Below are positions 36,760-38,421 of a DNA stretch of 49,661 bases, piece by piece; positions within the stretch are counted from its first letter, which is position 1; every line of letters starts with the position of its first letter. Where the stretch lies: NCBI GenBank assembly GCA_021787205.1, contig JAJYME010000005.1, positions 1-49,661 of the forward strand. The letters are read 5' to 3'. Made by a program: the position numbers and the translations under genes. The notes under the pieces are model-generated. The model had not been told where the DNA came from, ran no database searches, and saw only the letters and a list, made by a program, of their open reading frames with translations. The DNA comes from a bacterium. Lineage in GTDB: Bacteria; Patescibacteriota; Minisyncoccia; UBA6257; Colwellbacteraceae.

Positions 36760-36783
36760 ATATCATACCTTAACGATTTATTC

Positions 36784-36809
36784 TATAAAGCTTTTCCAGC
36801 TGACCAATC
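36784..36809 (-). other. 3' arm of the pre-16S processing stem
   Basis: These 26 bases pair with 38503-38528 upstream of the 16S gene: 21 Watson-Crick pairs, four further positions G-U compatible and one mismatch. Such stems bracket 16S precursors and are cut by RNase III. It marks the outer limit of the 3' trailer. Confidence 0.75.
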
Positions 36810-36917
36810 TCTAACCGATTCCCCGGTTAGCGAGCATCGTGACTTCACTATAGAGCTCCACGATTAACACTCTTTTGGTTCAACCAATTTCCTTTATCTA
36901 AAAGATAAAGTCGATCT

Positions 36918-38421
36918 TAATTTAATTGTTTCACGCACAGCTTCCGCTACACGTGCCTTGTTACGACTTAGCCCATGTTATTAAGTTCGAGCTAACTCCT
37001 TATCGAAGCTTCACTCGCTCCCAACTCCCTTGGCTTGACGGGCAGTGAGTACAAGACTCGAGAACGTATTCACCGCGCCATAGCTGATGCGCGATTACTA
37101 GCGATTCCGGCTTCATGAGGGCGAATTTCAGCCCTCAATCTGAACTGGGGTCGGTTTTGAAGGATTAGCTCCGCCTTGCGGCTTGGCAACCCGTTGTACC
37201 GACCATTGTAGCATGAGTGTGGCCCAGGGTATCAGAGGGCCATGCTGATCTGACGTCATCCCCTCCTTCCTCCTCGAAAACAAGGCAGTCTCCGATGACA
37301 CATATAACACCGGATAGGGGTTGCGCTCGTTACCCCACTTAAGGGAACATCTCACGACACGAGCTGACGACGACCATGCAGCACCTGTGCCACTGTCCTT
37401 GTGAGACATATCACGTTTCTGCGATATTTCAGTGACATTTCAAACCCTGGTAAGGTTCTTCGTTTACTGTCGAATTAAACCTCATGCTCCACCGCTTGTG
37501 CGAGTCTCCGTCTATTCCTTTGAGTTTTAGCCTTGCGGCCGTACTTCCCAGGCGGTCTACTTAACGCGTTAGCTTCGCCACTTCGAGGGTCGATACTCGA
37601 AATAGCCAGTAGACATCGTTTAGGGCGTGGACTACAAGGGTATCTAATCCTTTTTGCTCCCCACGCTTTCGTGTTTCAGAGTCAGAAATGTGCCAGTAAG
37701 CTGCCTTCGCCTTTGGTATTCCGCAAGATATCAACGGATTTCACCCCTACACCTTGCGTTCTACTTACCTCTCACATCCTCTAGTCTTGCCGTATCCCTC
37801 GCAGCTCCACCGTTAAGCGGTGAAATTTAACAAGAGACGCACAAAACCTCCTACACACCCTTTACGCCCAATAAATCCGGATAACGCTCGGAGCCTACGT
37901 ATTACCGCGGCTGCTGGCACGTAGTTTGCAGCTCCTTATTCCTACAGTACAGTCAAAATTCTTCCTGTAGAAAAGCAGTTTACGATCCGAAGACCTTCAT
38001 CCTGCACGCGGCGTCGCTCGTTCAGGCTTGCGCCCATTGACGAATATTCTCGGCTGCTGCCACCCGTAGGTGTACGGCCCGTGTCTCAGTGCCGTCGTTG
38101 GGGGTCCACCTCTCAGTGCCCCTACCGGTCATAGTCTTGGTGAGCCGTTACCTCGCCAACTAACTGATCGGACCTAGGCTGCTCCAATGGCGCATTGCTG
38201 CTTTACTCTTTCGAGACTATCTGGGATTACCCCATCTTTCGATGAGCTATACCAAACCAAAGGGTACATACCAAGGCGTTACTAACTCGTTCGCCACTGT
38301 CTTTCAGATCTCGTCAGTCTTGATGTAATCGCAACCTTCTTGAAGAGAAAAACCGTTCGACTTGCATGCCTTATCCACGCCGCCAGCGTTCATCCTGAGC
38401 CAGGATCAAACTCTCAATAAA
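36918..38421 (-). rRNA. rrs: 16S ribosomal RNA, without a recognisable anti-Shine-Dalgarno tail
   Basis: About 1,500 bases. The 5' end has AGAGTTTGATCCTGGCTCAG (38397-38414 region), the 530 loop GTGCCAGCAGCCGCGGTAA, the 790 region GGATTAGATACCC and the 3' end AAGTCGTAACAAGG. Helix 45 is kept (CACGTGTAGC-GGAA-GCTGTGCGTG, near 36932-36956), but the next bases are AAACAATTAAATTAAG where GGATCACCTCCTTA is expected. No CCTCC occurs up to the terminator. The 3' end at about 36918 is placed by analogy with E. coli. No internal intron is seen. The gene is solitary: no 23S, 5S or tRNA genes adjoin. Confidence 0.93.

Follow-up and report, generated by a model that had tools for sequence, protein, structure and literature searches.

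The 16S rRNA gene and its 3' end

The stretch of DNA analysed here (49,661 nucleotides; hereafter the window) forms contig C1 of a draft genome of 616 kb that is 96% complete, and contains on its reverse strand a 16S rRNA gene (36919..38421) matching the Rfam model RF00177 (1407.4 bits, model positions 1-1533). The covariance model was matched end to end, with the conserved core and the helix 45 GGAA loop expected of a bacterial 16S rRNA, and a search across the assembly found this one copy of the gene. As the 23S gene lies on a separate contig (C3:107064-110068), the 16S gene is unlinked to it, and an Rfam scan of the window found neither 23S nor 5S. Positions 33577-43338 hold a series of type IV pilin-like genes that begin almost identically (GFTLIELLIVIAIIAILGSATVLVLNPVE), and PilB- and PilC-like genes lie beside it (30558-33500). 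The protein encoded at 1452-2777 on the reverse strand joins a methyltransferase-like domain to a long SFGDR/KPFGER repeat region.

Helix 45 (36932..36955, reverse strand; CACGTGTAGCGGAAGCTGTGCGTG) is intact, as the initial annotation had stated, and forms 10 pairs when read from 36955 to 36932 as CACGTGTAGC-GGAA-GCTGTGCGTG. The loop of this helix is usually methylated by RsmA/KsgA, the gene for which is present in the genome (C6:14951), together with genes for IF3 and a four-domain S1 protein. With E. coli numbering carried over from the universal primer sites, U921A and A1396U look like compensatory changes at one pair of helix 28, as would be seen in a working 16S gene, and C1400, the P-site position, is a U. 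A leader arm (38503..38528) and a trailer arm (36784..36809), both on the reverse strand, make up a pre-16S processing stem of 25 pairs with an energy of -34.1 kcal/mol, compared with -8.3 ± 2.8 kcal/mol in shuffled arms, and this stem lies outside the tail, as had been proposed. An intrinsic terminator follows the gene at 36728..36761 on the reverse strand (first placed at 36730-36759). Upstream, the promoter-like site TTGACA-17-TAATAT (38670..38698, reverse strand) is a consensus match only (10/12), in a region where the count of promoter-like sites is no higher than in shuffles.

Directly 3' of helix 45 the gene reads GAAACAATTAAATT where GGATCACCTCCTTA is expected. The 3' tail (E. coli positions 1530-1542; 36919..36931, reverse strand) is AAACAATTAAATT, in place of GATCACCTCCTTA, and lacks the CCUCC of the usual 16S tail, a feature that is not required for membership of RF00177 and that ranks with the best conserved bacterial sequences. 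CCTCC, CTCC and CCTC are all missing from 36960 down to 36730, confirming that this 16S gene has no anti-Shine-Dalgarno (anti-SD) sequence before the terminator. The mature 16S rRNA is predicted to end near 36919 (...AAACAAUUAAAUU); the 16-base tail of the initial annotation, while correct in containing no anti-SD, extends about 3 bases beyond the likely mature end.

The tail in the order and class

A 16S gene was found in 45 of 61 genomes, comprising the window's own and its relatives, the nearest of which share 86% identity with the window in 16S. The initial annotation had named a second rrs copy with CCTCC, or relatives with CCTCC at the aligned place, as findings that would speak against it. 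The 16S gene is single-copy and the relatives are without CCTCC there, so that, as in bacteria without an anti-SD, CCUCC is gone from every 16S copy and close relatives are alike. Across the order, sampled as 244 environmental species from 27 families, the 16S 3' end could be read with a whole-3'-end pattern in 143 of the 244 genomes, a lower bound as the pattern skips split or divergent 3' ends (the window's genome, G000, scored 0 by it, its helix 45 showing GTGTAG). CCTCC occurred in 0 of the order's own tails among these 143 genomes, which argues that the observation is not a misassembly. The sole CCTCC in the order belongs to the second 16S of one genome (G313:C13:30568-30620), which was set aside as a probable contaminant because the same genome also carries an order-type copy without it.

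In a scan of a named genome collection, the tail pattern matched Wolfebacteria, Harrisonbacteria, Liptonbacteria, Colwellbacteria and Jorgensenbacteria, placing the lineage in the Parcubacteria/Paceibacteria. An even draw from the class gave a readable tail in 114 of 188 genomes, with CCTCC kept in 42 of the 114 by hand count; outside the class, CCTCC was kept in most tails among the matches listed. The earlier statement that almost all bacteria keep this tail thus holds for bacteria overall but not for the window's class. A rough 16S tree, made without the tail, introns and short rows, united 19 order sequences, including that of the window, in a single clade (SH-aLRT 99), with the order members L013, L014, L034 and L036 falling outside it, so that this tree does not show the order as a single group. 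CCTCC-keeping lineages are placed near this clade, and at least 7 state changes were counted over 67 rows, a parsimony count that is blind to gain versus loss; repeated loss of CCTCC within the class would be the simpler reading. As the loss is common to the whole order and is also seen elsewhere in the class, it is old. That the window's 16S is an assembly error, a pseudogene or a contaminant, as a draft genome of 11 contigs might invite one to suppose, is scarcely credible given the single copy with a full-length covariance match and an intact processing stem, its grouping with the order (SH-aLRT 98-99), and the nearly identical tail (GAATCAATTAAATT) of L019 and L020, which are of the same family and come from independent assemblies.

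Tails in the window's family and order read GGATCAATTAAACT, GGAACAATTAAACT, GAATCAATTAAATT and similar, and the consensus for the order is GGAWCAAUUAAAYU. A1534 and U1537 were invariant in 28 of 28 order sequences, no G was present at positions 1532-1539 in these 28, and conservation drops beyond about position 1543. As the tail is conserved although the 16S genes that carry it differ at 14-20% of sites, its conservation points to constraint, shared descent or a strong composition bias.

Complementarity between the tail and the 16S 5' end (AGUUUGAUCC) was seen by eye, with less of it in the window's own tail. In members of the class outside the window's order (L222, L223, L228, L231, L237, L239 and L252), the kept CCTCC pairs, as the 5' side of a hairpin, with the nucleotides that directly follow it (CUCCUUUCUAGGGAG). 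In several lineages that lost CCTCC the hairpin is rebuilt from a different sequence (AUCCUUUUAAGGAU, UUCCAAUUUGGAA, CUCUUUUCAAAAGAG); it has disappeared from the window's order. The CCTCC hairpin may be a 3'-processing signal.

Start regions and promoter boxes

Genes were predicted with a simple coding-potential model that is blind to upstream sequence, so statistics on start signals are not circular, and some of the starts are wrong. In the window's genome, SD-like motifs were present 4-18 nt upstream of 8% of starts versus 9% in the background (0.08 versus 0.09), the lack of enrichment seen in bacteria without an anti-SD. The same test gave ratios to background of 11 for E. coli and of 12, 4 and 3.3 for the positive controls G609, G461 and G716, respectively, demonstrating that it is able to detect SD use. 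For the genome's own tail and for the canonical tail alike, pairing with upstream regions was no stronger than with controls taken far upstream: mean binding of the own tail was -1.17 kcal/mol upstream and -1.27 kcal/mol far upstream, with -1.74 kcal/mol for shuffled tails, and no excess was found at the start of coding regions (-1.54 versus -1.56). With hybridisation at control level and SD motifs at background, the proposal that initiation is independent of SD pairing is upheld.

These measurements also make it very unlikely that the tail (AAUUAAAC/U) is a new anti-SD pairing with a matching motif before genes. Such a role would suit both the conservation of the tail across the order's families (A1534 and U1537 in 28/28, no G at 1532-1539) and the frequency of TAATT as an upstream 5-mer, but TAATT would also arise as a fragment of TATAATT, and hybridisation gave no support for pairing either upstream or at the coding-region start. 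It is harder still to credit that post-transcriptional editing, trans-splicing or a hidden intron completes or replaces the mature tail and gives the ribosome a CCUCC. Introns are common in the 16S genes of these bacteria (PMC12641178), but neither CTCC nor CCTC was found before the terminator, the processing stem lies outside the tail, and a hidden anti-SD would lack a partner in genes without SD motifs.

Start regions in the window's genome are A-rich and weakly folded, with an A frequency of 0.45 at -14..-1 and A-rich codons after the start, and A-rich starts are known to aid SD-less initiation in E. coli and Flavobacterium (PMC7043885, PMC6847099). The k-mers over-represented upstream of starts include ATAAT and TATAA. 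TATAAT with its 5' end at -16..-12 of the start codon was observed 67 times versus 3.1 expected (P about 1e-63), and TAnnnT at these positions preceded 35% of genes versus 10% in the background; among 2867 internal in-frame ATGs analyzed as a control, the corresponding values were 4.8% for TAnnnT and 0% for TATAAT. Alignment of the sequences on the box revealed TTG at -23 to -21 (about 17 nt upstream) and the TG of an extended -10 directly before the box; -35 element, extended -10 and box together make up a complete sigma-70 promoter. With the box at 12-16 nt and the usual spacing, transcription would start at the start codon or within a few nucleotides of it, and the prediction for many mRNAs is no leader or hardly any. 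Examples in the window, all on the reverse strand, are a TATAAT whose 5' end is at -13 (21527..21532; gene start 21519) and for whose gene a leaderless mRNA is predicted, TATACT at -13 of a ZnuA-like gene (6317..6322; gene start 6309) and at -15 of a SufC-like gene (30137..30142; gene start 30127), and TAGAAT at -15 of a pilin-like gene (42141..42146; gene start 42131). As expected of bacteria with leaderless transcription, many genes of this genome have a -10 box closely ahead of the start codon, at a fixed spacing. The signal was strong for genes after a gap and weakest for operon-internal genes, at 10% compared with 28-46% in the other gene classes.

As about two thirds of genes have no box at their start, leaderless mRNA would not be the sole route. 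The share of boxless genes, the A enrichment upstream and in early codons, the low folding energy at starts and the precedent from E. coli and Flavobacterium would all suit initiation as in Bacteroidota, on mostly leadered mRNAs with A-rich, unstructured, Kozak-like starts and no SD pairing, the promoter boxes being a minority feature. We consider this unlikely, as the excess of TATAAT at -12..-16 has no counterpart further upstream, where the promoters of leadered mRNAs would be expected, and leaders in F. johnsoniae average 33 nt (PMC6847099). The ribosome also departs from the SD-blind Bacteroidota type, in which the anti-SD is kept and held by bS21, bS18 and bS6, in that the anti-SD is absent; bS21 gave a weak match (E 1.6e-4) below the cut-off.

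Order of events and relation to known systems

Start signals were compared in pooled genomes, most of which contributed 19-130 genes each. Members of the class that keep CCTCC had SD motifs at 9% versus 9% and -10 boxes at 24% versus 10%, those of other orders that lost it had -10 boxes at 37% versus 15% with SD motifs at background, and the window's order had -10 boxes at 34% versus 13%. SD enrichment was found only outside the class (31% versus 9%) and was due to three of six genomes. Some keepers of CCTCC (G160 and G236) carry the -10 signature with SD motifs not enriched. Both SD use and a distinct -10 signature are lacking in the near-canonical G079 and G141 and in the keepers G099 and G140, indicating that further SD-independent routes exist. 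G153 was left out of this comparison, with one gene found and a coding fraction of 0.06; in 40 kb of this genome (G153:C2:1-40000; L181, L182) there are almost no standard-code open frames, perhaps because another genetic code is used, or as an artefact of the small training set. As keepers do not use SD and some of them have the -10 signature, SD-independent initiation probably arose first, with decay of the tail following later.

We propose that translation in these bacteria starts without pairing between mRNA and rRNA. Since the -10 box directly precedes the start codon, many first genes of transcription units would be read from mRNAs with no leader or a very short one (0 to about 4 nt). 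Operon-internal genes would depend on A-rich, weakly structured starts, probably with coupling to the upstream gene. Within the class, SD use would have faded, leaving CCUCC free to change and to be lost several times, and in the window's order it would have been replaced by the AU-rich consensus tail. Taken together, an order-wide loss of the anti-SD with SD-less initiation, leaderless mRNAs, SD use lost before the tail, and a functional window 16S rRNA without an anti-SD is our best explanation, to which we assign, as a whole, a probability of about 0.78. More tentatively, and less probably than not, the order may have replaced SD-guided with leaderless and A-rich initiation such that the newly constrained tail serves another purpose, candidates being Era-free 30S assembly, 3'-end processing, or keeping the mRNA channel unpaired. 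Era, which binds GAUCACCUCC (PMC10582724), was found in 0 of 61 genomes above the TIGR00436 cut-off, and the genomes thus do not have the gene expected for Era-dependent 30S assembly, in agreement with the report that most Paceibacteria are without era (PMC12641178). Low-scoring matches to TIGR00436 were taken to be other GTPases, as all fell below the cut-off and almost all end within the GTPase half of the model.

Our results suggest that a large bacterial group gave up the textbook start signal. The order without CCUCC and the related keepers without SD use provide a natural series for asking why an anti-SD is kept and how starts are found without one. In practice, starts in the order's genomes may be misplaced by gene callers built around SD motifs, and its 16S 3' ends may be truncated or discarded by annotation that looks for CCUCC. 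The 16S 3' ends of these bacteria are often incompletely annotated, according to a 2025 survey (PMC12641178), which may be the reason the scale of the loss was missed.

Amin et al. (2018) listed 128 taxa without an anti-SD (PMC6107228). That single Wolfebacteria and Campbellbacteria genomes lack CCUCC is already known, these and single Absconditabacteria (SR1) genomes being described as SD-scarce and without CCUCC in a 2024 paper (PMC10783764). Those genomes are alike in having no CCUCC and few SD motifs, and Wolfebacteria carry the tail pattern of this order; they differ in being isolated cases, with no survey of a whole order, analysis of promoters or consensus for the tail in the text consulted. 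In the open-licence literature we found no report of order-wide anti-SD loss or leaderless promoters in Patescibacteria, Parcubacteria or CPR, and the extent of the loss across the order, its association with leaderless promoters, the keepers with an unused tail and the consensus GGAWCAAUUAAAYU appear to be new.

Bacteroidota and Flavobacteriia with an altered or unused anti-SD are similar in their SD-independent, A-rich starts (PMC10783764, PMC6107228, PMC9976891, PMC6847099). However, F. johnsoniae has mostly leadered mRNAs and retains its anti-SD, whereas the window's order has lost the anti-SD and places the promoter right against the start codon. Carsonella, Hodgkinia and Mycoplasma haemocanis share a reduced genome, loss of CCUCC and the lack of SD motifs (PMC6107228, PMC10783764). 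These endosymbionts and haemotropic mycoplasmas are host-bound, in contrast to an environmental order of 244 species in 27 families. Leaderless-rich bacteria such as Mycobacterium tuberculosis and Deinococcus still have an anti-SD and initiate other genes by SD pairing, whereas both the anti-SD and SD use are gone from the window's order; what they have in common with it is a promoter directly before the start codon (cited in PMC9581028). Nanoarchaeia likewise combine leaderless mRNAs with loss of CCUCC (PMC10783764), but are archaeal and have different promoters.
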